From IMG/VR virus record IMGVR_UViG_3300035703_000272, positions 1-34,039 of that record: 34,039 nt of DNA. One strand, 5' to 3'. The translations under genes were made by a program, and so were the position numbers. This document shows, in pieces, positions 17,651-31,691 of the stretch (its first letter is position 1; each line of letters opens with the position of its first letter). This DNA is from a virus. The notes under the pieces are model-generated. The model worked only from the letters and a program-made list of their open reading frames with translations, ran no database searches and had not been told where the DNA came from.

Positions 17651-18310
17651 CTAAAAAGGTAAACCATCTTCGTTATAAGTGTATGCTGGTGGATGCTTTT
17701 CGTTCATCACCGCAAGCTCAATCGTTTCGGCATCCTTCTTCGATACCTTGTACTTGCGACGTATGCGATCCATTGTCATCTTGTCATCTTCAATCATCAA
17801 ACGCACGACCTCTTCACCCTTTTTGGTTAGGTTACCATCTTTGTCGGTTGCGTTCAGCCACGGCTTATCATCTGTATTGACCTCAGATTTCGGTTGTAAC
17901 GCGCGATCGGCTGTCGGTGCACTTGCTGTATTGCCGTCATCGTCGTCGTCGCTTACAATGCCTAGAATTGAGCTGAGTCCGTAGCGTCGGCCGTAGGTCT
18001 GAGCGCTGCCGATACCTTGAGGATCTTGCTTGCTTGGACGTAACGTGATCACGCTCTGGATCCATTCACCGCTTTCGTGGAACACGGTCGTCACTACGTT
18101 CACGTACGTGCCATCGGTTTCGGTGTTTGTTTGCGTAAATCCTAAGCCATTCGCCCGTAAGATAGGACGAACAGCTTCTACGATGTTATGCAAGGTAGCG
18201 TACTTTGATTTGTACACGGGATTTGACCCGTCGGTTAAGATAGGTTTGAACTCGCTTTGCGCTTTAATAAGTGCGCTAAACAGTTTGTTCGTTGTTTCGC
18301 TTTGCTTCAT
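17651..18310 (-). CDS. erf: Erf-family single-strand annealing protein
   Basis: A 219-residue recombinase. The N-terminal 125 residues are the Erf domain: ALIKAQSEFKPI, YKSKYATLHNIVEAVRPIL, and the signature GSAQTYGRRYGLSSILGI (101-118) followed by five Asp. It anneals complementary single strands, circularising DNA or building concatemers. The C-terminal third is flexible with a small helical domain, and the last residues, NEDGLPF, resemble the acidic hydrophobic tip of bacterial SSB proteins. It overlaps the upstream small gene by 35 bases. A VRR-NUC nuclease lies downstream in the same operon. Confidence 0.92.
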   Translation of the reverse strand: MKQSETTNKLFSALIKAQSEFKPILTDGSNPVYKSKYATLHNIVEAVRPILRANGLGFTQTNTETDGTYVNVVTTVFHESGEWIQSVITLRPSKQDPQGIGSAQTYGRRYGLSSILGIVSDDDDDGNTASAPTADRALQPKSEVNTDDKPWLNATDKDGNLTKKGEEVVRLMIEDDKMTMDRIRRKYKVSKKDAETIELAVMNEKHPPAYTYNEDGLPF

Positions 18311-18473
18311 TGACGATATCGTTTATAAGTTGTTGGTTATCTGCCTCAGATAGCTGATTAAACAGCAATTCTATCACGTAGCTAAAGTAATTATAAGCAT
18401 TAGGATCCTTTGACGCATCTAGTGCCGTTACTAAAAATCGACGAATATTGTAATAATCTTGCAATTTTAACAT
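18276..18473 (-). CDS. Unknown small helical protein before erf
   Basis: A 65-residue protein, all-helical in appearance (MLKLQDYYNIRRFLVTALDA...), beginning two bases after the stop of the upstream gene and overlapping the erf start by 35 bases. No family recognised. Its tight fit in the operon suggests real translation, possibly coupled to erf. Confidence 0.55.
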   Translation of the reverse strand: MLKLQDYYNIRRFLVTALDASKDPNAYNYFSYVIELLFNQLSEADNQQLINDIVNEAKRNNEQTV

Positions 18474-18475
18474 CG

Positions 18476-18895
18476 TTATTCCCCCTTGTAGGTAAGCTTA
18501 ATACCCTCAGCGGTAAAGCTAACTTTGGCAGGTGTGATCATCTCGCCAGTATCGGTATTGGCAAGCGGAACGCCTTCGGCTGCCATCGCCATCAATGACT
18601 CGTGATCCTTTAGTAACTTGTTGTATTGATTCCAAGTCGCATCATCTTTGTAGCTATACATCTTGCGCTGCTTGTTGATTTCAACGATATAGCCATTGAT
18701 TCTAACCTGCTCGCTACCATACTTTAGGCGCTCATTAATCGCATTAGCTTTGATTGCATCCAAGGCATCGGCAGCAGCATCAGCGATCATACGCAGTTGC
18801 ACGTATGCTGGTAGGGCTTTTGTATCACCATTAACAACATAGGATTGCAGGTCTGCAATGTCGTTAATGATTTGATTTAGTTTATCAGTAGTCAT
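18476..18895 (-). CDS. Unknown protein upstream of erf
   Basis: A 139-residue protein: a long helical first half (KLNQIINDIADLQSYVVNG, then an Ala-rich helix) followed by a strand-rich end (ITPAKVSFTAEGIKLTYKG). Proteins of this size and helix content often accompany phage annealing recombinases, where they are nuclease inhibitors or recombination helpers, but no specific match was recognised. The ATG at 18895 has no clear Shine-Dalgarno (AAAGATATG). Confidence 0.6.
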   Translation of the reverse strand: MTTDKLNQIINDIADLQSYVVNGDTKALPAYVQLRMIADAAADALDAIKANAINERLKYGSEQVRINGYIVEINKQRKMYSYKDDATWNQYNKLLKDHESLMAMAAEGVPLANTDTGEMITPAKVSFTAEGIKLTYKGE

Positions 18896-18935
18896 ATCTT
18901 TATATAGTTAGTTGTTCTAATGTGTGTCTGTGATG

Positions 18936-18965
18936 CGAAGGGGTGATCTAAAAGTCATCCCTTCG
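18936..18965 (-). promoter_or_regulatory. Stem-loop with stop codon in its loop
   Basis: CGAAGGG and CCCTTCG form a 7-bp stem, extended by TGA/TCA beyond one A-C mismatch. The stop codon of the 31-residue peptide is in the loop. There is no U-tract. Folding would depend on ribosomes leaving the peptide frame. Confidence 0.45.
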
Positions 18966-19043
18966 TACGTTTAAGTTCATAGTCGCTTTGTGATAGCCGT
19001 TGAGGAACCAAAGCACAACGATAAAAAACATAATTTCAAGCAT
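18948..19043 (-). CDS. 31-residue membrane microprotein
   Basis: ATG at 19043, stop TAG at 18948. It has a strong ribosome-binding site, AAGGAGGCTGCTATG, one of the best in the window, and overlaps the upstream stop by 8 bases. The peptide begins MLEIMFFIVVLWFLNGY, a single membrane helix, and ends with a polar, charged tail (NVRRDDF). Such early membrane peptides can modify the host envelope or exclude other phages, but the role is unknown. Confidence 0.65.
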   Translation of the reverse strand: MLEIMFFIVVLWFLNGYHKATMNLNVRRDDF

Positions 19044-19224
19044 AGCAGCCTCCTTCGTTATCGCGTGTTAATTCGTCAAACGCTTCACTGATCTCTCTGA
19101 TCTCGCCTATGTAGCGCAGCCACGCAGCGGAGTCGCCACAATACAGCGCCATATATGCCATAAACTTGGTTTGTCCTAAGCGCTCAGAGAGCTGCTCAAT
19201 TGTGTAGTTACTGAAGTTGTTCAT
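19036..19224 (-). CDS. Unknown small early protein
   Basis: A 62-residue helical acidic protein (MNNFSNYTIEQLSERLGQTK...GGCYA). ATG at 19224 is preceded by AAGGAGAACCG, a clear Shine-Dalgarno, and overlaps the stop of the ribbon-helix-helix gene in ATGA. No family recognised. Its strong site and place in the early operon suggest an abundant early product. Confidence 0.6.
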   Translation of the reverse strand: MNNFSNYTIEQLSERLGQTKFMAYMALYCGDSAAWLRYIGEIREISEAFDELTRDNEGGCYA

Positions 19225-19355
19225 CGGTTCTCCTTGCTAAACTGTTCAGCGATCAACGAACGTATGCCTACGCTGACTGATCCGTACTTGGATTTGAGCC
19301 ACATCACCCAGTCAAGGCGAAGAGTGATGTTGACTTGTTTTTTTTCTTGTGTCAT
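19221..19355 (-). CDS. 44-residue ribbon-helix-helix-like regulator
   Basis: ATG at 19355, TGA at 19221. The protein runs from a basic start through a strand VNITLRLD, then a helix WVMWLKSKYG, a turn SVSVG and a second helix IRSLIAEQFSK. A strand plus two helices with a serine-glycine turn is the ribbon-helix-helix (CopG/Arc) layout, in which a dimer inserts the strands into the DNA major groove. Close to the early promoter, it may autoregulate the early operon. Family call is by pattern only. Confidence 0.62.
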   Translation of the reverse strand: MTQEKKQVNITLRLDWVMWLKSKYGSVSVGIRSLIAEQFSKENR

Positions 19356-19357
19356 AA

Positions 19358-19699
19358 TTATAAGTTAGTGTTGTTACGGATAAATTCGTTGACAATGTGA
19401 ATGCTGTCATGATGCACCGCTGATTTGAAGTTATAACCGTTAATAACTTTTAAGCATGCACTACGCTGCTCAGGTGTGCAAGTTGCATCGTCGATTAAAA
19501 GTGCTGCTGCATCGTTTTGACGCTGCGTAGGCACATAGTTACCGCCAGCGGTTGCGTAGTCAAACTTTGAACTAGCGCGACGCTTCTCAGCTTTGGCAGC
19601 TTTGCGCTCATTATAAGCTTGAGCGTATGCGGCATCGGTTGCCATGCGGATTGCGAACTCTTTACGTTGTGCAGCGGAAGGTCTAAATTTGTAAGCCAT
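19358..19699 (-). CDS. First early protein, unknown
   Basis: A 113-residue protein with a very basic Ala-rich first half (RPSAAQRKEFAIRM, then NERKAAKAEKRRASSKFDYA) and a polar helical second half. The basic part could bind nucleic acid. It is the first gene behind the early promoter near 19.75 kb, about 40 bases from the -10. No family with known function recognised. Confidence 0.65.
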   Translation of the reverse strand: MAYKFRPSAAQRKEFAIRMATDAAYAQAYNERKAAKAEKRRASSKFDYATAGGNYVPTQRQNDAAALLIDDATCTPEQRSACLKVINGYNFKSAVHHDSIHIVNEFIRNNTNL

Positions 19700-19740
19700 A
19701 ATCGTGAGTGTTAATGTGTGTGCGTTTTTGATTATGTACT

Positions 19741-19768
19741 AATATACGTACTTTATATATAAAAGCAA
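19741..19768 (-). promoter_or_regulatory. Early promoter
   Basis: On the minus strand TTGCTT (19763-19768) is followed after 16 bases by TATATT (19741-19746) in strongly AT-rich DNA. It can be read as a sigma-70-like -35/-10 pair, or as the Bacteroidota type TTG-N19-TATATTAG. It lies just downstream of a terminator and about 42 bases before the first early ATG. Confidence 0.6.
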
Positions 19769-19816
19769 GCACTTTTAATACTATTTGTAAGTATTTATAA
19801 ATAATTGGCGTAAAAT

Positions 19817-19849
19817 AAAAAAGGCCAACCCTTTCACGGAGTTGGCCTT
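19817..19849 (-). terminator. Intrinsic terminator T2
   Basis: AAGGCCAAC / GTTGGCCTT, a perfect 9-bp stem with an 11-base loop, runs into TTTTTTATTTT on the minus strand. It ends about 50 bases before the early promoter. Confidence 0.9.
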
Positions 19850-19928
19850 GGTCCCTATGCTTAACGTAATTGCGATGTGCTGACCAGCTATCAGACTTGC
19901 CAGCACTAGTTCATGCTTAACTTATATA
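19817..19928 (-). ncRNA. Possible small RNA between two terminators (intergenic RNA A)
   Basis: Between T1 and T2 a candidate -10 (TATATA, 19923-19928; no good -35) could start an RNA of about 100 bases that ends at T2. It contains a GTGCTG / CAGCAC hairpin whose 3' arm, GGTCAGCAC (19880-19888), is exactly complementary to GTGCTGACC in intergenic RNA B. Existence as a transcript is inferred from the double-terminator layout. Confidence 0.42.
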
Positions 19929-19942
19929 CGTGAAACCAATAT

Positions 19943-19974
19943 AAAAAAAATAGCTATCCGATCAAAGATAGCTA
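19943..19974 (-). terminator. Intrinsic terminator T1, end of late operon
   Basis: TAGCTATC / GATAGCTA, a perfect 8-bp stem with an 8-base loop, followed by eight Ts on the minus strand, 21 bases after the stop of the holin/XhlA-like gene. Confidence 0.9.
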
Positions 19975-19994
19975 CTTGACTAGTGATCTGAGGT

Positions 19995-20282
19995 TTATAG
20001 GAGTCGTGCAATAATCGTATTCATAATGCCACCACCGAGCGCGCCAGAGCCGATAGCGATACCGATACTTATCCATTTAAATGTCTTGTTTTGCTCGGTT
20101 ACGATATCAAGCTCGCGTTCAATTGTCTGCAATCGGTAGAGTAAGCCTGTCTTGTTGTCCAGCTCGTTACCTACAATGACATTGTAAATCAAGCTGATCT
20201 TGTCTTCAATGCTGTTAAGTCGCTGTTCGATGGCATCCATGCGCTTTTGGCTTGGCTGGCCGCTAGTGTTATTTGATGTCAT
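19995..20282 (-). CDS. XhlA/holin-like coiled-coil membrane protein
   Basis: 95 residues from the ATG at 20282 (MTSNNTSGQPSQKRMD), which overlaps the upstream stop by 14 bases; in-frame starts further upstream run into that gene. A long coiled coil (MDAIEQRLNSIEDKISLIYN and onward) is followed by one C-terminal membrane helix, WISIGIAIGSGALGGGIMNT. This resembles the haemolysin XhlA-type helper of phage lysis cassettes and follows the peptidoglycan-active YkuD-like protein. It is the last gene of the late operon. Confidence 0.65.
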   Translation of the reverse strand: MTSNNTSGQPSQKRMDAIEQRLNSIEDKISLIYNVIVGNELDNKTGLLYRLQTIERELDIVTEQNKTFKWISIGIAIGSGALGGGIMNTIIARLL

Positions 20283-20856
20283 TGGATGTAAGTAAAGTGT
20301 AGGTGAATGAGTTGCCGTATAGCTGTCGTGAAAATTCACACAGCTTTATAAATTCATCGTACTCTGCGCTGCGTTTAAACACCTGGCAGCCGTGCGACCA
20401 GTTATCCACGATTACGCTATCACGACCAGCCTTGTGTATGTTAATGCCGAATAGGCCAGTATCGGTGCGAAGCTCATCATAATCTTTGTCACGATCGCTG
20501 TCACGCCATACGGTTACGGGTTTGCGTTGCACTAAGGCTTTATATCGTCCGCGGTGCAGGCCTAGCTGATAGGCGCCCCTATATTGACCCGGCACCAAAC
20601 GCGCTACGCCTTTAGGATTGTCATAAGTGATGGCGCCTTTTAAACCAGGATCGGTAGTGATCGGCCATTGATGGAACATCTGCTCGCCACGTAGCTTATA
20701 GCTTACGGTTAGCACATCATCGAACCAATTAGTGATGACCTTGTCAGTCACGCTATTACGTACGCCTACGATGTTAATGTTATAGTCGCCACTATCGAAA
20801 TAAATGTAACCTTTGGCTAGCATTACTGATCGTATGGCGGTAGCGTTATAGGTCAT
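20269..20856 (-). CDS. YkuD-like L,D-transpeptidase-fold protein
   Basis: 195 residues from the ATG at 20856. The C-terminal half has the catalytic layout of the YkuD fold as found in phages: GLFGINIHKAG with His141 and DNWSHGCQVF with Cys157 as nucleophile, preceded by ARLVPGQYRGAYQLGLH. Bacterial relatives form 3-3 cross-links; phage relatives are thought to act on host peptidoglycan, as lysins or entry enzymes. Located between tail fibre genes and the XhlA-like gene, it could belong to either tail or lysis. The N-terminal part (IYFDSGDYNINIVGVRNS) resembles a structural or substrate-entry segment. Confidence 0.7.
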   Translation of the reverse strand: MTYNATAIRSVMLAKGYIYFDSGDYNINIVGVRNSVTDKVITNWFDDVLTVSYKLRGEQMFHQWPITTDPGLKGAITYDNPKGVARLVPGQYRGAYQLGLHRGRYKALVQRKPVTVWRDSDRDKDYDELRTDTGLFGINIHKAGRDSVIVDNWSHGCQVFKRSAEYDEFIKLCEFSRQLYGNSFTYTLLTSNDIK

Positions 20857-21247
20857 CAATGCGTACCCAGCTAAGCGTGTCTTCGTCCCATATATATGTA
20901 TGACCATCATTTGGGTATGGTACGGGCGCTTCCCATAAACACGATGTTGTATCTAACAACCAAGATTGGAATGGTTGTGGTGGGATAAAAGCATCTAATG
21001 TAGCATCATACGTGTAGCCAATGCCTGCGTAATTTTTACGGTATGCTTTGCTTTGATCAGCTGATGGCTTATTTGTATTAGAATCATAATGTATACCGCC
21101 ATGTGTGTTATAACTTGTACGCTTGCACACCTGCCCACGAAACTCGCCATACCACTCTTCCCAGTTGATGCCATCTTCGCCTTCATCTTTACCGACAATT
21201 ACATCAGTAACTATATTTTGGTCATCTAAAAATGCGTAGTGTGCCAT
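20846..21247 (-). CDS. Aquatic-phage 'KNYAGIGYTYD' family structural protein
   Basis: A 133-residue protein whose pattern, MAHYAFLDDQNIVTDVIVG, NTHGG, RKNYAGIGYTYDATLDAFI, PQPFQSWLLD and a Trp-rich end (YIWDEDTLSW), is a family I recognise from cyanophages, pelagiphages and other aquatic phages. There it is encoded among tail fibre or virion genes; the exact role is unknown, probably a tail accessory or fibre-tip component. It lies between the glycine-rich adhesin and the YkuD-like gene, in agreement with that. Confidence 0.75.
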   Translation of the reverse strand: MAHYAFLDDQNIVTDVIVGKDEGEDGINWEEWYGEFRGQVCKRTSYNTHGGIHYDSNTNKPSADQSKAYRKNYAGIGYTYDATLDAFIPPQPFQSWLLDTTSCLWEAPVPYPNDGHTYIWDEDTLSWVRIDDL

Positions 21248-21249
21248 AA

Positions 21250-22179
21250 TTAAGTAAATGTAACTGTTCCAGTTCCAGCTGTAAAATTTTTATAGCTATA
21301 TGAGCCATCAGTACCGGTAGCATCAGCGGTAAGACCTGCGCCCACTGTTATACTAGCATCAGCGGTCAACCATCTTAATATGACTACTCCCGATCCACCT
21401 GCTTTGGCATCTGTAGTGGCATAACTTCCACCACCGCCACCGCCCGTGTTAGCTGATCCAGCTGTTGGTGCAAGAACACCACCACCAGATCCTCGGCCAC
21501 CATTACCACCTCCTCCAGATCCTCCCAATCCTCGTGTGTTAAATCCTGGGCCACCGCCACCGCCTGCACGAGTAACCGATGAACCTGTTGCCGATGATGC
21601 TATACCACTTCCGCCAGCTCCACCTACTCCATTAGTAGCTGTTGCACCGTTAGCTGATGCACCACCTCCACCACCGCCAGCATTGCCAAGAGTTTCAACA
21701 CCACTTCCACCATCTTTACCTTGGCTTGTAGTACCAGTGCCACCAGCTCTTCCTGTATAAGGTGGTGTATTATCGGTTCCACCACCACCTCCAGAACCAC
21801 CATTTAATCCAGTTGCATTTGTATTATCGAATGCACCGCCACCGCCACCGCCCGTAGATGTAATTGTCGAAAAAGTTGAGCTACTTCCATTTGTTCCTCT
21901 TCCACTTACTGTTGTAGAACCGGCTCCGCCCCCACCTATTGTAACTGTATATTGTGTGTTTTTTGTTATAAATATTGCTGATTCAGCAGTAGTATTACCA
22001 CCACTATTATCGCCAGTTACACTCGATCTATATCCACCAGCTCCACCGCCTGCAAAACCACCGCCACCGCCACCACCAGCTATAACTAAATATTGAACAG
22101 ATAAATTAACATTTCCAGGTAATGTTTGAATAATCGGCGCTATCTGCCCGCTACGAGTGCGTAATCCATATCTACTCAT
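21250..22179 (-). CDS. Glycine-rich tail adhesin-like protein
   Basis: A 309-residue protein, dominated by runs of Gly broken by Ser, Ala, Thr and Asn from about residue 35 to 265. The opening SVQYLVIAGGGGGGG and the closing GGSGVVILRWLTADASI are the signature of a family of phage glycine-rich virion proteins. In better-known cases (T-even gp38 and relatives) poly-Gly II helices form a receptor-binding tip. It probably recognises the host surface together with the long fibre upstream. A C-terminal GTDGSYSYKNFTAGTGTVTF forms a small beta extension. Confidence 0.75.
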   Translation of the reverse strand: MSRYGLRTRSGQIAPIIQTLPGNVNLSVQYLVIAGGGGGGGFAGGGAGGYRSSVTGDNSGGNTTAESAIFITKNTQYTVTIGGGGAGSTTVSGRGTNGSSSTFSTITSTGGGGGGAFDNTNATGLNGGSGGGGGTDNTPPYTGRAGGTGTTSQGKDGGSGVETLGNAGGGGGGASANGATATNGVGGAGGSGIASSATGSSVTRAGGGGGPGFNTRGLGGSGGGGNGGRGSGGGVLAPTAGSANTGGGGGGSYATTDAKAGGSGVVILRWLTADASITVGAGLTADATGTDGSYSYKNFTAGTGTVTFT

Positions 22180-22553
22180 GGTGCTATATTGTTAACAAAT
22201 CCAGTTATAGTAGTAGTGTTACCTACATTAGTAAATGCGCTAATATAGCGTAGTCCAGATTCTGTGCCTTGTAGTACAGTGCCAGGTGTAATGATTGTAA
22301 AACCGCTTGCTGCTGGAATACCATAGACAATGCGATCATTATTTGTAGCGTTTGCAATATTGCTACCATATTGTATCGTCAAACTTACATTAGATGCGCT
22401 AAAGTTATTAGCATACAACCATACCTCATGATAAACATTAGCATTAGAAGTTATGCTATGCAGATTAGTTGCATTGCTAGTAAGCGTACCTTGTATTAAT
22501 ATAGGCCTACCACCGTCACTTGATGATAGTTTTTCTTTGGTGATGTTTGCCAT
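22176..22553 (-). CDS. Small beta-rich tail protein
   Basis: A 125-residue protein with no Cys and few charges, rich in Asn, Thr and Ser (HSITSNANVYHEVWLYANNF, IQYGSNIANATNNDRIVY, TPGTVLQGTESGLRYISAF). It reads as a single beta-sandwich like those of head or tail accessory proteins. Lying between the long fibre and the glycine-rich protein and overlapping the latter by 4 bases, it may be a fibre-attached accessory or spike component. No definite family. Confidence 0.55.
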   Translation of the reverse strand: MANITKEKLSSSDGGRPILIQGTLTSNATNLHSITSNANVYHEVWLYANNFSASNVSLTIQYGSNIANATNNDRIVYGIPAASGFTIITPGTVLQGTESGLRYISAFTNVGNTTTITGFVNNIAP

Positions 22554-22555
22554 AA

Positions 22556-25471
22556 TTAGCTAAAAACTTGAGCGTTTAAAATGATGTTACCAAGATCTAT
22601 TGCGGAGCTACCGCCCTGCGATTGAACCGCATTCCATGTGTTGCTAGTGCTCAAATATGTAAGCACATAACCATTAGTAGGCGATGTTACGTTGACATTT
22701 GTAAGATCGTCAAGACTTAATTCTACAACGCCATTTTTGCCGTTGACGCTTATAACATTCGCATAGCTCACTACCTGCGTTACATTCTGATAACCAGCAG
22801 GATTCAAGTTGCTATAAGCACCAACATCATCGGCATCTAACACGACTACACCTGATGCGCCATTGACGCTAATAACGTTGGCGTATGCTACGACCTGTGA
22901 TACGTTCTGGTAGCCAGCAGGGTTAGTATTTGCATACGCTCCTACGTCATCCGCATCGAGCACAACGACACCGCTGGCACCGTTGACCGATACGACATTG
23001 GCATAGCTTACAACTTGAGAAACGTTCTGATAACCTGCTGGGTTCAAATTCGAGTAAGCGCCGACATCGTCCGCATCAAGCACCACAATGCCACTAGCGC
23101 CATTAACGCTTATCACATTGGCCGTAGCTTGCACCTGCGAGATGTTAACAAAGCCACTTGGGTTCAAATTGCTATAGGCACCAACGTCATCGGCATCTAA
23201 AACAACTACGCCAGATGCACCGTTCACGCTAACTACATTAGCATAAGCTGTTACTTGAGATACATTCTGATAGCCACTTGGATTGGTGTTTGCGTATGCT
23301 CCTACATCGTCTGCATCAAGTAACACAACACCGCTCTTGCCATTGACGTTAACTACATTAGCGTACGTTACTACCTGTGAAACGTTTTGATAGCCGGCTG
23401 GGTTGGTATTAGAATATGCTCCGATTTCATCAAGCGTAGGAAAGCTAAGCACCGGATTTTGCGGATCGCTATTATCGACACCATCACCGCTCACGCTTTG
23501 CACACCGCCAGCACTTACGCTTTTAGCTTGCCAAGTATTGCTAGTACCGTTGTAAATAAGGTACTGGCCTTCGGTCGCGTTAGTAGCTTGGACATCATTG
23601 ATATCGTTCATGTTTAGCACGACGACACCTGTCTGGCCATTGACGCTATCGACCGCACCGCCACCGCCTTCGCCTGCAATCCACGTATTTGAGGTAGCGT
23701 TATATATAAGCACATCGCCCGTATTGGCAACCGTCACGTTTACATTGCTTAGATCGTCAAGACTTAAAACGACAATATTAGTTTTGCTGTTAACGCTTTG
23801 CACGGGCGCTGCTGCGCTGGCTTGAGATATGTTTACAAAGCCACTAGGATTTGTGTTGCTATAAGCCCCGACATCGTTAGCATCTAATACGACAACACCG
23901 CTCTTGCCATTGACGTTAACTACATTGGCATAAGATGTAACTTGTGAAAGATTTTGATAGCCGGCAGGATTGGTATTGGCGTATGCTCCAACGTCATCAG
24001 CGTCTAAGACTACTATTCCTGATGCGCCATTAACGCTCACAACGTTAGCTACGGCCGTTACCTGGCTAATGTTAGTGTATCCGCTTGGGTTTAAATTGCT
24101 ATACGCCCCAATGTCGTCGGCATCTAACACGACAATATTTGTCTGGCCGTTTACACTTTGTACAGGGGCAGCAACGCTAGCCTGCGAAACGTTTATATAT
24201 CCTGCTGGATTTGTGTTGGAATATGCCCCGATCTGATTAACGGTCGGGAATGTAAGCGTTGGGTAGAATGGGTTAGCGTTATTAACGCCATCACCGCTAA
24301 TGCCTAGCACTACATTGTGTGTATTCCAAACATTGCTAGAGCTGTTCCAAATAATAGTCTGGCCATTGGTTACATTTGTTGCGTTAACATCGTGTAAGTC
24401 TTTGAGGTCATCCGATAGCCACGGACGCACTAACACATTGACGTTATTGCCGTTAATGCTAACGATTGCACATACGCTAATTTTAAGGTTTGGAGCCGTT
24501 GGCTCAACCTTCGTTAGTCCACCTGCAACCGCAGGATCGCACCATAGCAAATCACCTTCTGCCCACGTTTGCCCTGCTGGTTGTTTAGCACTTAGGCTGA
24601 TCCCACGTAGGTTGCCAAACCATGTTACAAATCCATCAGCGCCAGCCGTTATTTCTTCGGTCACTAATCCTGTCAACAGCTTAGCCGGTAACGTACCATC
24701 GGCAACCATTCGTTTGATACGTAATTTGTTACCCTGTGCTGGCGTGGTTGGGTCAACCATAACAACAGTACCCTTAGTAAGGGTAACGCTATCGGCATTA
24801 TAAGAGATCGGATATAACGTTTCCTGACCGATCTGCAACATAGTGTTGGCAGTCTTGCCGAACTCTAAAGTTTTCTCCTCATAGTTCCAACCTATTTGCC
24901 CAATGCCTACCGTTGCATTCGTGGTTGTATCAAACGTTACCGTATCGACGTTAATGTTTGAAGTCCATGTTGCATCGTAATCAGTGCCTGAATTCTTTTG
25001 CAGCAATTGATACTGAGCACCGCCATTGTATACATTTACAACACCGCTTTGCCCATTGACCGATATAACGTTTGCGTATGCCGTGACCTGCGAAACATTT
25101 TGATAACCGCTAGGGTTTAAATTAGAATAGGCGCCTACGTCATCGGCATCAAGAAGCACTACACCGCTGGCATTATTTACGCTTACGACATTACTGACCG
25201 CGGTAACTTGTGATATGTTTACATACCCATTCGGGTTAGTGTTTGAGTAAGCTCCAACGTCATCGGCATCGAGAACTACAATGCCTATTTGACCATTGAC
25301 GCTATCAATAGCGCCTGAACCATTACTCCAATAAGTATCGTAATTGGCATTGGTATTTTTGCGGAGCACTTGACCTACTGTACCACCAGCTGCAACGCCT
25401 TGACCCGGGTCGCCTTTCTCGCCTACAGGTACTATCTCAACAATGTAATTGCGTACATTCACGTCACTCAT
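22556..25471 (-). CDS. Long tail fibre with twelve 'GAYxNxNPxGY' repeats
   Basis: A 971-residue fibre. After a short N-terminal attachment part with a collagen-like GEKGDPGQG, it carries about twelve copies of a unit whose core is LDADDVGAYSNxNPxGYxN and whose full spacing in the regular arrays is 40 residues (SVNGASGVV precedes each). 'SVNGxxGxV' repeats are a common shaft element in phage fibres. Residues about 175-385 form a separate domain (YNADSVTLTKGTVVMVDPTT; ITAGADGFVTWFGNLRGI; WAEGDLLWCDP) found in other aquatic phage fibres. Three further linkers of the type 'YNGTSNTWQAKS' break the arrays. It probably trimerises and binds a host receptor. Confidence 0.85.
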   Translation of the reverse strand: MSDVNVRNYIVEIVPVGEKGDPGQGVAAGGTVGQVLRKNTNANYDTYWSNGSGAIDSVNGQIGIVVLDADDVGAYSNTNPNGYVNISQVTAVSNVVSVNNASGVVLLDADDVGAYSNLNPSGYQNVSQVTAYANVISVNGQSGVVNVYNGGAQYQLLQKNSGTDYDATWTSNINVDTVTFDTTTNATVGIGQIGWNYEEKTLEFGKTANTMLQIGQETLYPISYNADSVTLTKGTVVMVDPTTPAQGNKLRIKRMVADGTLPAKLLTGLVTEEITAGADGFVTWFGNLRGISLSAKQPAGQTWAEGDLLWCDPAVAGGLTKVEPTAPNLKISVCAIVSINGNNVNVLVRPWLSDDLKDLHDVNATNVTNGQTIIWNSSSNVWNTHNVVLGISGDGVNNANPFYPTLTFPTVNQIGAYSNTNPAGYINVSQASVAAPVQSVNGQTNIVVLDADDIGAYSNLNPSGYTNISQVTAVANVVSVNGASGIVVLDADDVGAYANTNPAGYQNLSQVTSYANVVNVNGKSGVVVLDANDVGAYSNTNPSGFVNISQASAAAPVQSVNSKTNIVVLSLDDLSNVNVTVANTGDVLIYNATSNTWIAGEGGGGAVDSVNGQTGVVVLNMNDINDVQATNATEGQYLIYNGTSNTWQAKSVSAGGVQSVSGDGVDNSDPQNPVLSFPTLDEIGAYSNTNPAGYQNVSQVVTYANVVNVNGKSGVVLLDADDVGAYANTNPSGYQNVSQVTAYANVVSVNGASGVVVLDADDVGAYSNLNPSGFVNISQVQATANVISVNGASGIVVLDADDVGAYSNLNPAGYQNVSQVVSYANVVSVNGASGVVVLDADDVGAYANTNPAGYQNVSQVVAYANVISVNGASGVVVLDADDVGAYSNLNPAGYQNVTQVVSYANVISVNGKNGVVELSLDDLTNVNVTSPTNGYVLTYLSTSNTWNAVQSQGGSSAIDLGNIILNAQVFS
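22735..25310. repeat. 120-bp protein-coding repeats in the fibre gene
   Basis: About twelve degenerate copies. The clearest tandem run is 22735-23420 with exact 120-base spacing; smaller groups lie near 23800-24240 and 25030-25310. Amino acids are nearly constant from copy to copy while codons vary widely. Confidence 0.85.
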
Positions 25472-25848
25472 GTCGTTACCTCCGCTGTAACTGTAAACTG
25501 TCCTGTCATGTAACTTGTTTCAATCGTCGCATTGCTGACCCGAAAGTCATATACCAATGATGCAACAGGTATGTTTGCCATGTTTGATTTGCCGATTGTC
25601 CATGTCACAACGTCAAAGCTTGTATTGCTTATCACAATATCGCCATTGTTAGTGCTACTTGTATATATGACGTTGACATTCGACCCACGTACACGCTTGA
25701 TCTGAGCCTTGATATCGTAACCTGAAAGACTCATTGGCACAACATTGCCATTCGTGTTGGTCTGGAACTTCCATCGGCGCTGGAAAGTGTCGCCCTGATA
25801 TACGTTTAAATTTTGAAGCCCCGGGTAAGTAGCTAATTCTATGGCCAC
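25468..25848 (-). CDS. Baseplate upper protein-like N-terminal domain
   Basis: A 126-residue beta-rich protein. The start NLNVYQGDTFQRRWKFQT, then LSGYDIKAQIKRV and a closing SYMTGQFTVTAEVT are the pattern of the small domain at the N-terminus of BppU-like and other phage fibre-anchor proteins ('qGDtf...l..Y.ira.ir'). It likely links the fibre to the tail tip. The GTG start overlaps the microprotein stop by ten bases; it is followed by the fibre gene with a 4-base overlap. Confidence 0.65.
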   Translation of the reverse strand: MAIELATYPGLQNLNVYQGDTFQRRWKFQTNTNGNVVPMSLSGYDIKAQIKRVRGSNVNVIYTSSTNNGDIVISNTSFDVVTWTIGKSNMANIPVASLVYDFRVSNATIETSYMTGQFTVTAEVTT

Positions 25849-25946
25849 TTTTTTAAAATTAAGAGCAGTTTGCAGATCAGTTTAACAGTCCAAGGTACGA
25901 CCTTGTTCGGGTCATACCTTGGATCGAAGTCTATCGGATAACTCAC
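25839..25946 (-). CDS. 35-residue microprotein between membrane protein and baseplate genes
   Basis: GTG at 25946 overlaps the preceding stop as GTGA, and the TAG at 25839 overlaps the next gene's start by 10 bases. The peptide begins MSYPIDFDPRYDPNKVVPW and ends in an amphipathic basic helix (KLICKLLLILKKWP). The frame covers the gap exactly, which supports a real gene. Its DNA also contains a 14-bp hairpin (25889-25923), so the segment may have a double role. Confidence 0.6.
   Translation of the reverse strand: MSYPIDFDPRYDPNKVVPWTVKLICKLLLILKKWP
25889..25923 (-). promoter_or_regulatory. 14-bp hairpin inside the microprotein gene
   Basis: TCCAAGGTATGACC pairs with GGTCGTACCTTGGA (one U-G pair) around a 7-base loop, one of the strongest stems in the window. 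No U-tract follows. It could slow ribosomes, stabilise mRNA or separate the sugar genes from the fibre genes. Confidence 0.6.
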
Positions 25947-26359
25947 AAGCTTAGCGCACCGCTAATGCGCTGGATCCACTCCGCAAGCGGAAGGCCTAGC
26001 ACTTCTACGGTACCGTAAAGCACGGTGATAAGCGACAAGCCTCGAGCGACTACCGTCAACGGCCAGTCAACTACAGGTTTGCCTTTACGATCTTTTACAA
26101 TCTCACCGTCTTTGCGTTGATACACGGGATACGGGAAGACCCACTGCAAGAGCACTGGAATTAGCTTGCCCATAATACCGTTAAATAATTTTTCAAACAT
26201 ACCTTTTTTGATTTTTGGTTGTTCATCCTGCGCTGGCTTCGGCTCGACAGCCTCGACCTTTTCCGGCAAAGGTTTTGGTACCTTTGGTTTCGGTGCGTTA
26301 CCAATGCGCTTCGGCATAGTAACTTTCACAGGCTCTATGAAATTTTTTTTATCGCTCAT
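25943..26359 (-). CDS. Membrane protein with Pro/Lys-rich N-terminus, holin-like or tail-associated
   Basis: 138 residues from the ATG at 26359 (MSDKKNFIEPVK), overlapping the upstream stop by 11 bases; an in-frame start 24 bases further upstream is less likely. The first 60 residues are rich in Pro, Lys and Glu (KPKVPKPLPEKVEAVEPKPA), then comes a basic segment with YQRKDGEIVKDRKGKPVVDW, and a C-terminal hydrophobic region (VVARGLSLITVLYGTVEVLG) that can span or lie in a membrane. It resembles small phage membrane proteins but no holin family was recognised. Confidence 0.5.
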   Translation of the reverse strand: MSDKKNFIEPVKVTMPKRIGNAPKPKVPKPLPEKVEAVEPKPAQDEQPKIKKGMFEKLFNGIMGKLIPVLLQWVFPYPVYQRKDGEIVKDRKGKPVVDWPLTVVARGLSLITVLYGTVEVLGLPLAEWIQRISGALSL

Positions 26360-27203
26360 TAAGCACTCCCATTGCGTTCTCAATCGTCTTAAATTCGTAC
26401 GGCACAGGTGTGCCCAAGGTCATCGATACGTTGTCAGGTACCGACTTAGCTTCGCCACGTGCATTGATCTGCTTTTGCGCAGCCTTGATAACGTCTTCAA
26501 ATAATGCCACGTTCATATTGGCATCGGTGCGCAATCGATCGAGGAGCAGCGTAGCACCTTTAATAAACTGCGTATCGTCCATCGGATACGACATCTGACC
26601 GTAGTGCACCACCATAATAGATGGGTCAAGATACGTCTTGTAACCTAGCTCAGCAGCGAGCTGGCAAAAATAGTAATCCTCACTTAAGTAGCGTCCGCTA
26701 CGTACGCCAATGCGAAACCAGTCATGATAGTCTCCTGCCTGCTCATCGTCATCTGGTCTGTAGTTATGCTCAGGCCACATCGTTTTCATAGCGCCAAAGA
26801 CGTCACGACGTATCATCATAAAGCCCGTACCGATTTCGCGCATGACAAATAGGTTCTCTTCCTGCGCTAAAGCATGGTTCATGACTGGTGTGTATGGTAT
26901 CGTCTTTTTTAGGTATATACCACCGCAGATACCTTTGTTATGTGATCGAAGCAGGTTGATCATATTGCGATCAAACTTTATATCGCTGTCTATAAACATA
27001 AGGTACTCCGAGTCGCTGTCAAGAAACATCTTTACGATCTTGTTGCGACCACGTGGGATCAAGCTATCACCGTTATAGTATTGGATACCCGCAACGACAC
27101 ACTCGGGATCAGACACCGCAGCCAAACACTCCTGCAGGATGTCCGCATGAATGCGGTTATCGTAGCAAGGTAGGCCTATCAGTACGTCTTTTTTAACTGG
27201 CAT
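26349..27203 (-). CDS. GT-A glycosyltransferase-like protein (Anp1/GT2 type)
   Basis: A 284-residue protein. It begins DVLIGLPCYDNRIHADIL, has NGDSLIPRGRNKIVKMFLDS and the metal-binding FIDSDIKF (Asp72-Ser-Asp74), then GICGGIYLKKT and a late SEDYYFCQLAAELGYKTYLD containing the candidate catalytic acidic pair. This order, with RGRN before the DxD, is that of Anp1-like and related phage glycosyltransferases. A 168-base leader upstream marks it as the start of a new unit. The acceptor is unknown. Confidence 0.75.
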   Translation of the reverse strand: MPVKKDVLIGLPCYDNRIHADILQECLAAVSDPECVVAGIQYYNGDSLIPRGRNKIVKMFLDSDSEYLMFIDSDIKFDRNMINLLRSHNKGICGGIYLKKTIPYTPVMNHALAQEENLFVMREIGTGFMMIRRDVFGAMKTMWPEHNYRPDDDEQAGDYHDWFRIGVRSGRYLSEDYYFCQLAAELGYKTYLDPSIMVVHYGQMSYPMDDTQFIKGATLLLDRLRTDANMNVALFEDVIKAAQKQINARGEAKSVPDNVSMTLGTPVPYEFKTIENAMGVLNER

Positions 27204-27371
27204 AAAATTAAGGAGGGTTTAAGGTTGCCTTAAAATTACGCAAAAAAATGTTGCTTTTTTAAAATATTTGTTGTTAAGACTAAATAATTATAGATACCCT
27301 TCGTTATCTTCAGGTATCACATTGATTTCATGATTGCAAAGGCATCCTTCAGGAATGGGGGTTGCCTTTAT
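27204..27371 (-). promoter_or_regulatory. Leader region with hairpins and a -10-like TATAAT
   Basis: The gap between two transferase genes. It holds AAAGGCA/TGCCTTT and GATACC/GGTATC stems, a TATAAT (27287-27292 region, no good -35), and a palindromic TTTAAGG-CAA-CCTTAAA (27219-27235) close to the downstream ATG. A small open frame continues from the upstream gene's stop. Separate transcription of the last transferase is possible. Confidence 0.4.
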
Positions 27372-28052
27372 TTATTTAGGCAACATACCATAGTAGTCAT
27401 CATTAAAATGTGGTCGTAAATGTATATGCCCTTGTTCGGTTGATCGGCTATCGACGATGTCATATACCTGCTGTGAATCGTTATTGCCGATTCCAGATAT
27501 ATGCGTAGTGCCCATGCCCCAGCGATATATCATGCTATAGTATCCCGTATTTCCCGTATAGATTTTGGCATCATTACCGAAAGTTATCATGCCATCTTCT
27601 ATAACTGATACGTCTGGAAAAGTTATTCGATTTATGTACTTACGTGAATAGCAGTTGCCATTATTGACGCTACCACCAATATCTAGATATATATTGTCAG
27701 AGTAAAAGTAGTGCGCATAACATCGATATACATCGTAACCTGGATTGCTATTGATATAAGATGCCACTAAACTAAGCGCCCATGGTGATAATAAGTCATC
27801 ATCATCAAGCCTGTATACGTGATCGTACTTACAAGCCTTCATCCCGTACTCTAGTTTTTTGCCTATGCTGCTGAAACGCTCACTTAAATTAATGATGCGT
27901 ATACGATCATCATCAATGCTGTAAGTTACAAGCGGGCTATCGTTAACGATAATCATCTCGCTTTCACAGTCAAAGTCTTGAGCTAAAAATGAATGTACAG
28001 CCTCCTCAAGCAGGTGATGCCTACGATACGTAAGCGTGACTACGCTTATCAT
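27372..28052 (-). CDS. Family 2 glycosyltransferase
   Basis: A 226-residue GT2 enzyme: ISVVTLTYRRHHLLEEAVHS, IIVNDSP, the nucleotide-sugar-binding HVYRLDDDDLLSPWAL (Asp83-86), and GNNDSQQVYDIVD near the end. The N-terminal signature and the DDDD motif make the family clear. It is coupled to the GT32-like gene by a 4-base overlap. Its frame continues open for about 27 codons after the TAA stop. Soluble; acts in the cytoplasm on an unknown acceptor. Confidence 0.85.
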   Translation of the reverse strand: MISVVTLTYRRHHLLEEAVHSFLAQDFDCESEMIIVNDSPLVTYSIDDDRIRIINLSERFSSIGKKLEYGMKACKYDHVYRLDDDDLLSPWALSLVASYINSNPGYDVYRCYAHYFYSDNIYLDIGGSVNNGNCYSRKYINRITFPDVSVIEDGMITFGNDAKIYTGNTGYYSMIYRWGMGTTHISGIGNNDSQQVYDIVDSRSTEQGHIHLRPHFNDDYYGMLPK

Positions 28053-28696
28053 TCGTATTCACCGCTTAATAACTTAATATTCCACTCGCTGTTTGGATAC
28101 CATGATGCAAGGGCAATATGCTGAAACGCTTTGTCGGTATCGGCAACATCAATCAGCTTGACGCCATAGATTGATAAATCATCTATGAATTGACCATACG
28201 TAGGCGTGTAATTATGTCCGAAATATTTGATCAAAGAATTTGACCAGTAGTTTGGGCCTAACCATTGATCGCTAGTTTTAATGCCGTCGATCAATAACTT
28301 TAATAGCTCGTGCTCTTTATCAAACCCAAAAAAATTGCAACCCAACGCGCCTATACCATAGCCATCGTTATACGTTATAAACCCATCATTATTCTCTGAT
28401 ATAGGCAACGCGTCAAAGCCACCGATTAACTTATGATCGCCATCTAAATAATAACCACCATATTTATATACTACATACATGCGCAATAAGTCAGTCTTTG
28501 CCGATGTCTTTGTAGGATCAGCTATGCCATTATAAATTGATAACAAGTTATCTGGCATCTCAGGCAAGTTGCCATCATGCCAAAAGTGATACTCGTAATC
28601 TGCATGTGCATCCTTGATCTCCTGCATCCACTCTTTAATATGCTTAGGTATGCGCTTATCACCGACCCATACTTGATGTATGACTTTAGGTATCAT
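28049..28696 (-). CDS. GT32-type glycosyltransferase (DxD sugar transferase)
   Basis: A 215-residue protein with the family opening IPKVIHQVWVGDKRIPKHI, then YEYHFWHDGNLP and the hallmark SAKTDLLRMYVVYKYGGYYL with Asp85-Gly-Asp87 just behind it. This combination of 'IPKxIHQ', 'K(T/S)D.LR' and 'YGGxYLDxD' defines the Gly_transf_sug / OCH1-like GT32 group, which includes mannosyl- and galactosyltransferases and some toxins. Overlaps both neighbours by 4 bases. Confidence 0.88.
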   Translation of the reverse strand: MIPKVIHQVWVGDKRIPKHIKEWMQEIKDAHADYEYHFWHDGNLPEMPDNLLSIYNGIADPTKTSAKTDLLRMYVVYKYGGYYLDGDHKLIGGFDALPISENNDGFITYNDGYGIGALGCNFFGFDKEHELLKLLIDGIKTSDQWLGPNYWSNSLIKYFGHNYTPTYGQFIDDLSIYGVKLIDVADTDKAFQHIALASWYPNSEWNIKLLSGEYE

Positions 28697-29640
28697 ATAA
28701 GGATGCTATTCTTTTCAGCCTGCTGAACCCAATAGTAGTAGTAGCTACTTGCCATGTCCTGACGAATATCGAGATTCAAGTTATACGGAAAACGATCAAT
28801 GTAATTAGCCTTATAAAATAGCCCCGTGCTATCGGTCGTCACGCCTGCATTGTGCATAATATTGCAAGTGTCGATCTCTTTAATGCCCGACGTACCCCAA
28901 GCAAAGTCGAACGCTTTGTCGATCTTAGTTGTAATGCCTCGTTTCCAAGCTGTCCACAATAGCGCCCACATATCTGCCGTCCAGATCTGAATCTCATGGT
29001 AAGATGGTACGTCTAGCTTTTTAGCTGCATTAAGTGCGCTTATCTCTTTAAATAGCGCCTCGCTTTTTTGCTCGACCGCATACCAGAAGCTAGCGTCAAC
29101 GCCTTTCATAAGGTACTGTGCACCGATATCACCACCATCATCGCTACGCTGCATCACTTCTTCGCCATCGATGTGCATAATATCGAACATAGCCTGAGCA
29201 ATATCATAGCCTTTGCTTACGATGTACGGATAGCCGATGTACCATTTAACATCCGATCCGTACCATACCTTGTCGCTTATCAGATCTTTGCTGATCCATT
29301 GGCTTGGCGGTTGCGTGAAGATCATATCGCAGTCATGGTAAAAAATGGTCTCGCCTTCCATTTCTGGATGCGCTTCCCAATGCTGCCTTAATATATTAGG
29401 CCTAATGCTTGAAATGTAGTGTTTTGTTTGGCGACGATCGCAGTAGAAAAAGAAACGTGACGGATAGGTCTCGGCCAATCGCTGCCAATCTGGTGGCACC
29501 TGGCACCCTGGCTTTTCGCAGATGATATCGATTTGATTAGGATTGATGCCCATTGCGTAGAAGTTAGCTAGCATCGTTTCAATCTGCCACGCGTAGTATG
29601 GCGTAGCCGGTTGTGCGCAGATGTATCGAATAGGTTTCAT
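28693..29640 (-). CDS. Putative glycosyltransferase with DCD motif
   Basis: 315 residues from the ATG at 29640 (MKPIRYICAQPATPYYAWQI); an in-frame GTG at 29670 overlapping the upstream stop would add ten residues. ETIFYHDCDMIFTQPP carries Asp103-Cys-Asp105 as a likely DxD motif of a GT-A fold, and WYGSDVKWYIGYPYIV and SYHEIQIWTADMWALLW look like conserved core elements. I recognise such proteins from phage and aquatic metagenomic genomes but not their substrate. It opens the second sugar cassette directly after the tail-tip gene. Confidence 0.6.
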   Translation of the reverse strand: MKPIRYICAQPATPYYAWQIETMLANFYAMGINPNQIDIICEKPGCQVPPDWQRLAETYPSRFFFYCDRRQTKHYISSIRPNILRQHWEAHPEMEGETIFYHDCDMIFTQPPSQWISKDLISDKVWYGSDVKWYIGYPYIVSKGYDIAQAMFDIMHIDGEEVMQRSDDGGDIGAQYLMKGVDASFWYAVEQKSEALFKEISALNAAKKLDVPSYHEIQIWTADMWALLWTAWKRGITTKIDKAFDFAWGTSGIKEIDTCNIMHNAGVTTDSTGLFYKANYIDRFPYNLNLDIRQDMASSYYYYWVQQAEKNSILI

Positions 29641-29663
29641 GTTAGTACGTATGTCAAAATTAA

Positions 29664-31691
29664 TCAACACGACCCACTTGACATGACTGTTCCATCATTA
29701 TCAATTTGTTTCCAATTACTACCATCACTCCAGTAGATTTCTTCACCGTTAAATACTTGATATGTACTTCCTACTAATTCAATAAATATAGTGCTGGCAC
29801 TAAATGTAGTATCATTACCGTATAAAGTTTTTGTACCAGGATATGCAGTGCATGCACCAGCGCCGCTAAATATACTAAAGTCAATGTTGTTGAATTGCGT
29901 TAATGCATCTATAACCTGCAACACTTGACCACTGCTATTTATTTCAACTACTTTCAGTCCATTGCTATACCAACCAGCTTGAGATAATGGCGTCGTACAA
30001 GTGTCACTTGTATATGCCATTGTTGCCGATGTAATTACTGGGTTGTTTAAATATATGTAATTAGCAGCTCCTGTATAGACTTCCTTAGTAGCTTCCGCTG
30101 CCGTTAGCCCAAATCCCATCAAATATTCAACACATTGGGCTAAGGTTGTTGTGGTTGTTGTGGTCGTGCTTGTAGTTGTAGTACTTGTAGTCGTAGTACT
30201 TGTAGTAGTTGTCGTAGTTGGCGAAGTTCCAGCACCTAACTGATACGCACGTACCGTGACCTTATCGCTCATAAAGTCATAGCTTAGCGACGATGGTCGA
30301 AAGATCTTATCTTGATAGCGTGTAGGCACGCTTTGATCAAATACGAACGGCTGATGAGGCTTGAGCTTTTCGGCACCGATCATCTCGAATTCGATCGTGT
30401 ATATGTTACGTTCGGTAAGCGTCACACCTAATGGTGGCGCGTATGCATTGGTAGCAGCACGCGTAATGTTTTGTACATAGCTATCTAAATAGTCAGTACG
30501 CATTGTTGTGTTGCCAAACGCTGCGCTATTAGATGCATATCCATAAGTTTCGCTAGTTTCTAAACCACCTATTAAAAGAAACGGTGTGTATTTAGAGTAA
30601 TCTATAACCAAAGATTGAGGCGCGTCTAGCCATGCATCGAATCTAACTGTTTGCGATGCTGATGGGAAAAACCTTGCATTAGCTGAATCAGCTGCTACGC
30701 CTGCATTGAACTTATAAGTTATTGAATTGATATAGCGACCGACACGCTGAAACTTTATATCAGATAGATCGTTATTCGTGATCGTTACTTGATTGTCTTT
30801 ATTTTGCCTATTGATATAAAAATTGATGTTAAATGCGCTGCCAAAGATAGCGCCTTCCATCGCTGCGAATTGCTTTACCTTATCAATAGCTAGATCATTG
30901 TCGAAGGCGCTTGTCTTGACCGGATCAAATTGAAAGTTAGGCACATATGTTCCAGGACCGTATTCAAGGATCTCAGCGCGTCTAGGAAACGCGCCGTAGT
31001 TAGCGTTGGTATATGTCGTGCCTGCCCATTGAATAGTTGTAAACTTACCTATATTACGCGCACTCTTATACACATTCTGATTGCCTGACCCTTGATTAAG
31101 TAAGGCAACGACATCATAAATAAAGTCGCCTGCTAGAACTGTTGTTGTATCGGTGTATGCTGCTACAAACGTAGGTGCTCCTGCTCCTGTTGTTGTATAG
31201 TCAAGCTGTTCAATAACATCGGCTGCGTATATTGATGCACGCTGCGCTCCCCATTGCGACACGGTATAGTTAGTGTATTGCGGACTCATAGCAATCGATA
31301 GATGACCGCTGCGCTCGTCATATTGAAGGTCGCTATACCTTATCTTAAACGGAAAACGATACGTTGTTCCAGGACTTACCCTTGAATGCAACACTAGATT
31401 TGCGTTGCTTACTGGTAGCTCATACCAATACTCTACATTGTAATTGCCTAGCTTATTTTCCAGTACCTGAAACATGCTTCCCATATTAGACAGCTTATCC
31501 ACCGCTTTGATCGTCATGCTGCCTGGTATAGCAGATACGTACGTGAGCTGATCTTCGCTAGTGACAAGGTCATACTCGTAATCAAGACTTGACATATCAA
31601 TAATGTCAAAGTTGGTATCGCTACCAGCAACGTCAATATCAAACGATATAACACCTGCCCTTGATTGTATGTTTGTCGCTATTAAACTCAC
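29664..31691 (-). CDS. Large tail-tip protein with Thr-rich linker and C-terminal domain
   Basis: A 675-residue beta-rich protein following the distal tail protein, the position of the tail-hub / tail-associated protein. Residues 1-485 form the structural part (VRAYQLGAGT ends it). A linker almost entirely of Thr with a few Ser follows at about 490-515, then a C-terminal domain of roughly 160 residues with several Cys (AQCVEYLMGFGLTAAEA; TSDTCTTPLSQAGWYSNG; FSGAGACTAYPG) that may bind a receptor. The GTG start overlaps the upstream stop as GTGA. Confidence 0.7.
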   Translation of the reverse strand: MSLIATNIQSRAGVISFDIDVAGSDTNFDIIDMSSLDYEYDLVTSEDQLTYVSAIPGSMTIKAVDKLSNMGSMFQVLENKLGNYNVEYWYELPVSNANLVLHSRVSPGTTYRFPFKIRYSDLQYDERSGHLSIAMSPQYTNYTVSQWGAQRASIYAADVIEQLDYTTTGAGAPTFVAAYTDTTTVLAGDFIYDVVALLNQGSGNQNVYKSARNIGKFTTIQWAGTTYTNANYGAFPRRAEILEYGPGTYVPNFQFDPVKTSAFDNDLAIDKVKQFAAMEGAIFGSAFNINFYINRQNKDNQVTITNNDLSDIKFQRVGRYINSITYKFNAGVAADSANARFFPSASQTVRFDAWLDAPQSLVIDYSKYTPFLLIGGLETSETYGYASNSAAFGNTTMRTDYLDSYVQNITRAATNAYAPPLGVTLTERNIYTIEFEMIGAEKLKPHQPFVFDQSVPTRYQDKIFRPSSLSYDFMSDKVTVRAYQLGAGTSPTTTTTTSTTTTSTTTTSTTTTTTTTLAQCVEYLMGFGLTAAEATKEVYTGAANYIYLNNPVITSATMAYTSDTCTTPLSQAGWYSNGLKVVEINSSGQVLQVIDALTQFNNIDFSIFSGAGACTAYPGTKTLYGNDTTFSASTIFIELVGSTYQVFNGEEIYWSDGSNWKQIDNDGTVMSSGSC
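30155..30232. repeat. Thr-codon repeat encoding the linker
   Basis: An imperfect trinucleotide tract (GTT/GTA/GTC/GTG on the plus strand, ACN codons on the minus) with TTGTAGTACT-like longer units. It encodes the Thr/Ser linker of the tail-tip protein and could vary in length. Confidence 0.75.

Follow-up and report, generated by a model that had tools for sequence, protein, structure and literature searches.

Repeated units of a phage tail-fibre-like gene conserve their peptide with codons that agree no more often than random choice predicts

The window analysed here is the whole of the IMG/VR virus record IMGVR_UViG_3300035703_000272, 34,039 bases long. On its minus strand, an open reading frame (ORF) of 971 aa at positions 22556-25471 encodes a tail-fibre-like protein made of three blocks of 40-residue repeats, with two other modules, here called A and B, between them. 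Ten 40-codon units are present by our count, which excludes partial units such as those starting at aa 138, 560, 610 and 909. They follow the type VNGASGVVVLDADDVGAYSNxNPxGYQNVSQVxAYANVIS. The gene serves here as a test case for the question whether repeats that keep their protein but differ in codons call for a special explanation.

All features of the gene are given on the minus strand, in the order of the protein. The first block consists of the units at aa 58-97 (25181-25300) and aa 98-137 (25061-25180), and is followed by module A (aa 138-425, 24197-25060). The second block holds the units at aa 440-479 (24035-24154), aa 480-519 (23915-24034) and aa 520-559 (23795-23914), and leads into module B (aa 560-700, 23372-23794). 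Each module is present once per gene; module B contains the partial unit motifs at aa 560 and 610, and is therefore not wholly free of repeats. The last block is made of five units, at aa 709-748 (23228-23347), aa 749-788 (23108-23227), aa 789-828 (22988-23107), aa 829-868 (22868-22987) and aa 869-908 (22748-22867), the second, fourth and fifth of which carry VNGASGVVVLD and the third VNGASGIVVLD.

The protein matched phrog_2824 (virion structural protein, E 6.3e-38) at 10 stretches, and such a series of profile matches along one protein is what members of this type display; it also matched phrog_14726 (tail fiber, E 6.1e-10). The gene lies among the tail genes of a tailed phage, with a terminase, a glycine-rich neighbour (PF21722) and a tape-measure-like gene at 32153-33916, the last with a weak match (E 4e-4). 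This family resemblance and position suggest that the units make up the shaft of a trimeric fibre. Module A, modelled as a single chain with AlphaFold, gave no usable model, with a mean predicted local distance difference test score (pLDDT) of 29. Two other assignments of the fibre were discarded: the Pfam families DUF3303 and DUF5701, for which no stretch was significant alone and the whole-protein scores summed weak repeats, and designed beta-trefoils of the PDB, where the matches were weak and against another repetitive protein.

The original prediction had described adjacent 120-base units that encode the same peptide with different synonymous codons. Its coordinates and quoted codons proved correct: on the minus strand, AGC GTC AAT GGC GCA straddles the start of the unit at aa 869, and TCG GTC AAC GGT GCC that of the unit at aa 829, while the program TRF reported a period of 120 and 4.5 copies at 22739-23276. 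"Same peptide" was slightly too strong, as the exact SVNGASGVVVLD is found in three units (aa 749, 829 and 869), the unit at aa 789 reading SVNGASGIVVLD and that at aa 709 NVNGKSGVVLLD. The stretch described is just the last block of the larger set of units.

Over the 45 pairs formed by the ten units, the mean identity was 0.764 in amino acids and 0.640 in nucleotides. The proportion of synonymous sites that differ (pS) was 0.849 and that of nonsynonymous sites (pN) 0.206, corresponding to a nonsynonymous divergence (dN) of 0.246; the synonymous divergence (dS) was infinite by the Jukes-Cantor formula in 39 of the 45 pairs. Where the residue is the same in two units, codons were identical in 36.5% of cases (502/1376). 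Shuffling codons among unit positions with the same residue yielded 36.0% (sd 1.1), and drawing them according to codon usage elsewhere in the gene 39.3% (sd 1.8; P=0.059 towards lower identity). This means that the codons of the units are as unlike as random choice gives, and overall not significantly more unlike. The saturated dS and the low dN support the proposal that these are old repeats under strong protein selection.

Relatives were looked for in IMG/VR. A query with the unit found two close relatives, G001 (locus L002) and G002 (locus L003), each with a 938-residue fibre homologue; queries with the modules found the same two again, and an alignment of the units found a third, G003 (locus L047), with an 879-residue homologue and a unit of its own, VNGQTNVVVLGADDVGAYSNTNPANYINVAQAAAAAPVQS. 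Apart from L047, a query with L047 returned a single locus, L050, at 46% identity, and a further search gave 7 loci, among them L062 and L063 at 26-30% identity. No relative was found with the whole fibre protein as IMG/VR query, nor in one scan of genome contigs. The fibre gene and several of its neighbours are conserved in G001, G002 and G003. By the same criterion as in the window, 8 units were counted in L002 and in L003, and 4 of the VNG type in L047. Codon identity between units was again at the level of the permutation null, with 0.387 vs 0.381 in L002, 0.382 vs 0.364 in L003, and 0.367 vs 0.365 for the four units of L047. The L002 and L003 genes are 96.1% identical in DNA and 99.0% in protein, with units in register, and 95 of their 104 differing codons are synonymous, which further supports old repeats held by selection on the protein. 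Two observations had been named in advance as speaking against selection for divergence of the DNA: synonymous divergence no higher than ageing gives, and frequent change in the number of repeats. Synonymous divergence was indeed no higher than random; the data do not show that the number of units changes often, L002 and L003 being in register.

The array is not frozen, as modules A and B stand in the order A-B in the window and in L047, and B-A in L002 and L003. Residues 57-494 of the window protein align with 453-890 of L002, and residues 412-796 with 110-541, whereas window residues 23-843 are collinear with 54-860 of the L047 open frame. An extra A-B pair may have been gained and the outer modules then lost, both by way of the repeats, which would yield the swap. 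Mean unit identity is 0.764 within the window, 0.737 within L002 and 0.747 between them, so that the pool of units seems older than the split of these two lineages. The same figures speak against concerted evolution within lineages for the window and L002; it may have acted in L047, where units are 0.921 identical to each other and 0.605 to those of the window. Window units carry VNGASG, those of the relatives VNGQSG or VNGYSG.

We consider it quite probable that old internal duplications, purifying selection on the protein, saturation of synonymous sites and rare rearrangement account for these data, and that the window can be explained without selection for DNA divergence. The repeated element would be a shaft segment of 40 residues from a phage tail fibre, duplicated internally long ago; purifying selection would then have held the protein while synonymous sites mutated to saturation, leaving codons that agree at the random rate, as is observed. 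Rare recombination between units and between strains would still rearrange the gene. That recombination takes place is suggested by the change in A/B order, by divergent patches in the near-identical strains, and by an exact direct repeat of 35 nt, in frame, whose copies flank module B at a distance of 567 nt (copy 1, aa 516-527, 23892-23926; copy 2, aa 705-716, 23325-23359; minus strand). The longest repeat reached in 300 codon permutations was 32 nt.

To calibrate ageing, we used reciprocal-best ortholog pairs of at least 100 codons from the window and G001-G021, the fibre gene excluded. This gave 1596 pairs; the ortholog windows overlap, and several of the 22 records are near-identical. Expected codon identity, in these and in the module comparisons below, was taken from codon usage pooled over four genomes. 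Ortholog codon identity averaged 0.45 at 70-80% amino-acid identity, 0.66 at 85-90% (minimum 0.57, 20 pairs) and 0.76 at 95-98% (minimum 0.63, 75 pairs). The unit pairs of the window fell on the low side of this curve, at a mean percentile of 0.33 over the 45 pairs, a descriptive figure, like all percentiles over pairs given here, as unit pairs of one gene are not independent. The 36 pairs with fewer than 34 of 40 residues alike stood at a mean percentile of 0.38, i.e. somewhat low, among 40-codon ortholog windows from the same phage group with comparable protein identity. Over all unit pairs, the mean percentiles were 0.38 in L002 and 0.36 in L003 (28 pairs each).

Single-copy parts of the gene were compared in the same manner between the window and L002. 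Module A, 79% identical in amino acids and 46% in codons, was on the ortholog curve. Module B, 89% identical in amino acids, had 41% of its codons in common (47/114), a lower value than in any of the 20 ortholog pairs at this level of protein identity. For the N-terminal 57 residues the values were 75% and 61% (25/41), and for the C-terminal 52 residues 54% and 44% (12/27). Modules A and B have thus diverged as well, and the randomisation of codons is not confined to the tandem units, which favours a constraint on the fibre protein and opposes a force specific to repeats.

Several observations weigh against the account by ageing under purifying selection. The 9 window pairs with at least 34 of 40 residues alike stood at a mean percentile of only 0.135, and the six unit pairs of L047 at 0.077 of ortholog windows. 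L047 (L047:1922-4561) also contains a duplication of 144 codons at a lag of 129 (aa 558-701 vs 687-830), with 137 residues alike and the same codon at 51 of these 137 (0.372). This stretch was picked for its protein similarity; among 1059 overlapping ortholog windows with at least 135 of 144 residues alike, the lowest codon identity was 0.45. This outlier could be due to very strong constraint or to a raised rate of synonymous change. As the most alike pairs leave the curve, ageing under the usual constraint is insufficient for them, and one must suppose that the fibre is more tightly constrained. A comparison of L002 with L003 shows no such tightening in the units, with 39 synonymous and 5 nonsynonymous differing codons in 320, against 56 and 4 in about 618 codons outside. 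Module B is 64% identical in amino acids between the window and L047, with a codon identity of 0.52 (27/52) that exceeds the value for the nearer L002, and ageing alone does not predict this lesser randomisation. Finally, touching units of the window, which lie in the region 22748-23347, agreed in 0.268 of codons vs 0.358 expected (7 pairs, P=0.002; 0 of 1000 in a second run), and touching units pooled over the window, L002 and L047 in 0.321 vs 0.367 (P=0.031). The deficit was absent in L002 (0.404 vs 0.381) and L003 (0.381 vs 0.365) and, being one of several lags and genes tried, it was treated as weak and unexplained.

The best surviving alternative, which we regard as possible though clearly less likely, is that much of the codon divergence was imported, units or patches having been exchanged with diverged strains so that the array is a mosaic of alleles. 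The differences between L002 and L003 are clustered (dispersion 3.32, vs a maximum of 1.87 in 5000 shuffles), and one patch of 114 nt holds 26 differing bases. The swapped module order points the same way, as does a comparison of G001 (18313-26541) with G002 (26873-35101), where a block of 8.2 kb that carries the fibre gene and glycosyltransferase-like neighbours is 97.1% identical, vs 72-92% for the other blocks longer than 1 kb. That block reads as a recent exchange of the host-recognition region between the two lineages, to which codon divergence was evidently no bar. However, a search of three fibre genes (window, L002, L003) revealed no clear donor of the divergent patches, and imported alleles must have aged too, so that import would be a different route with the same cause.

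A second alternative, put forward in the original prediction, is that codons diverged under selection: identical units would be deleted by the phage's Erf protein or by host recombination, and unit loss would be costly. An Erf-family gene is indeed present. The ORF at 17651-18310 (minus strand, 219 aa) encodes an ERF-superfamily single-strand annealing protein (PF04404, E 7.2e-26, 91.4 bits vs a curated cut-off of 25; phrog_2324, 4.5e-49), with homologues 51-53% identical in G001, G002 and G003; no link was found between this gene and the repeats. Besides Erf, the proposal can draw on the touching window units below random codon identity, on the L047 superunit, whose codon identity is lower than in ortholog windows matched for protein identity, and on engineering work outlined in PMC12365220, in which codon diversification suppresses repeat recombination in adeno-associated virus (AAV) vectors. 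But selected scrambling should push codon identity below random, and the overall value was at the random level in the window (0.365 vs 0.360), with no general drop in L002, L003 or L047 either. Nor were long exact matches depleted in any of the four genes. In-frame exact repeats of at least 15 nt numbered 4 in the window (3.3 expected) and 5 in L002 (3.2 expected), and were in excess in L003 (9 vs 2.9, P=0.007) and L047 (10 vs 4.2, P=0.013); the longest ones, 35 nt in the window and 47 nt in L047, were longer than any in 300 shuffles, which was not the case in L002 (26 nt, P=0.077) or L003 (20 nt). Codon identity did not depend significantly on the distance between copies in any of 7 genes, the single-copy module B was equally randomised between the window and L002, and the deficit at touching units is missing in L002 and L003. 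Between L002 and L003, 44 of 320 codons differ in the units and 60 of about 619 outside (P=0.063), the direction being that of faster change in the units. We conclude that selection for DNA divergence against Erf-driven deletion is unsupported and, as an explanation of the window, improbable, although an early phase of it may have existed, since divergence gains nothing once homology is short. A narrower form, in which a newly gained fibre unit persists only when its DNA soon comes to differ from that of its neighbours, so that synonymous selection protects fibre length, seems to us just as doubtful; its traces would be the L047 superunit, with 137 of 144 residues alike and random codons, and the touching-unit deficit of the window.

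There is also a slim chance that ascertainment explains the pattern: short-read metagenome assembly may lose arrays of identical units, so that only codon-randomised ones are seen whole. In two further relatives (L088, at the start of G4, and L090, at the end of G5), the counterpart of the gene at 25946-26383, two genes upstream of the fibre gene, is complete, but the contigs break 46 and 59 nt beyond its final sense codon, as if assembly forked before the fibre cassette, and the G002 contig ends 160 nt after the fibre stop codon. Yet such a loss can hide young arrays and cannot create a protein 95% alike with random codons, and a segment in the cultured phage S-WAM1 is random as well (0.39 vs 0.42 expected over 54 aa). 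None of 18 extra relatives had a fibre match, which says little, as most are short fragments of other regions.

Old duplication, purifying selection and saturation thus remain our preferred account. Judged against random codon choice and the 1596 ortholog pairs, the window mostly needs no special explanation; L047 might. The fibre modules that lie between such repeats can change order, and this is one way for phages to rebuild their host-recognition fibres.

Some other features of the window were recorded. Its two ends, 1-1236 and 32804-34039, cover one and the same portion of the tape-measure-like gene and are 85.1% identical to each other; the genome is probably circularly permuted, with an assembly that runs from the allele of one strain into that of another. 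Sugar-related genes lie at 10178-12877 and 26349-29670. They include an NDP-sugar epimerase/dehydratase-like gene (11370-12221; TIGR01179, 3.8e-26, below the cut-off) and, scoring just under its own cut-off, an FkbM-type methyltransferase-like gene (10822-11373); their neighbours are glycosyltransferase-like by eye only, those at 26349-27203 and 28049-28696 having no NCBIfam match. A hexanucleotide array at 14018-14099 (period 6, 13.7 copies) encodes a DK-rich stretch in the ORF 13757-14518. A Ser/Thr-rich low-complexity tract at 30145-30220 belongs to a gene of 675 aa (29664-31691), and L002 and L003 have similar tracts at the equivalent place.

Repeats with random codons were found beyond this phage. 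Frames of at least 200 codons were surveyed in the loci collected, segments being picked for protein similarity and expectations taken from each gene's own codon usage. Sixteen frames had internal repeats by our criterion, including two antisense frames of L016 and a glycine-rich gene of L047. In 10 of them, among which are the fibre genes of the window, L002, L003 and L047, codon identity fell short of the expectation or differed from it by no more than 0.05; in the remaining 6 it was higher. A survey of isolates, with segments and expectations chosen likewise, revealed repeats in 4 of 16 fibre-type genes, those of S-B68, S-CREM2, MA01 and S-WAM1, the S-CREM2 and S-WAM1 genes being incomplete at the ends of the stretches. 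The long fibres of the cyanophages S-B68, S-CREM2 and MA01 have internal repeats too, 91-92% alike in protein, with a codon identity of 0.60-0.63 vs 0.44-0.50 expected: their codons still share ancestry, whereas those of the window are random. S-WAM1, with its single 54-residue segment, resembles the window. The phage of the window is therefore not alone in having fibre repeats with random codons, and younger repeats are also common.

At the protein level, the closest known type is that of phrog_2824 and FtbO (PDB 9j1l), which has the motif VNGxxGxVxLDAxDV in common with the window fibre. The motif is found in fibre-like frames of many IMG/VR contigs and in isolates, among them Synechococcus phage S-B68 and Pseudomonas phage Rollin. 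In FtbO one copy aligns and a second weakly, the unit profile giving a whole-sequence E of about 1e-3 and single stretches of at least 0.17; the match spans just 17 of the 40 unit positions, whereas the window unit has a regular length of 40 residues and contains GAYSNxNPxGYQNVSQV. The whole fibre matched the isolate collection mainly through module A, whose core was found in 9 phage records at 29-40% identity, and a query with two units gave no match there up to E 10, perhaps through low-complexity masking.

In the literature, a search at the level of titles and abstract openings found no description of natural codon randomisation in fibre repeats, and two systems offer a comparison. In Enterococcus phage EfV12-phi1, as outlined in PMC6365445, a 1.8-kb tail-fibre segment was duplicated in tandem during experimental coevolution; this is an in-frame gain of a fibre segment as proposed here, but a fresh one, whereas the window has no young pair of full units. 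The codon scrambling engineered in AAV vectors, in the outline given in PMC12365220, likewise writes the same protein in different codons, there by design against recombination, whereas the divergence in the window is at the level of chance.

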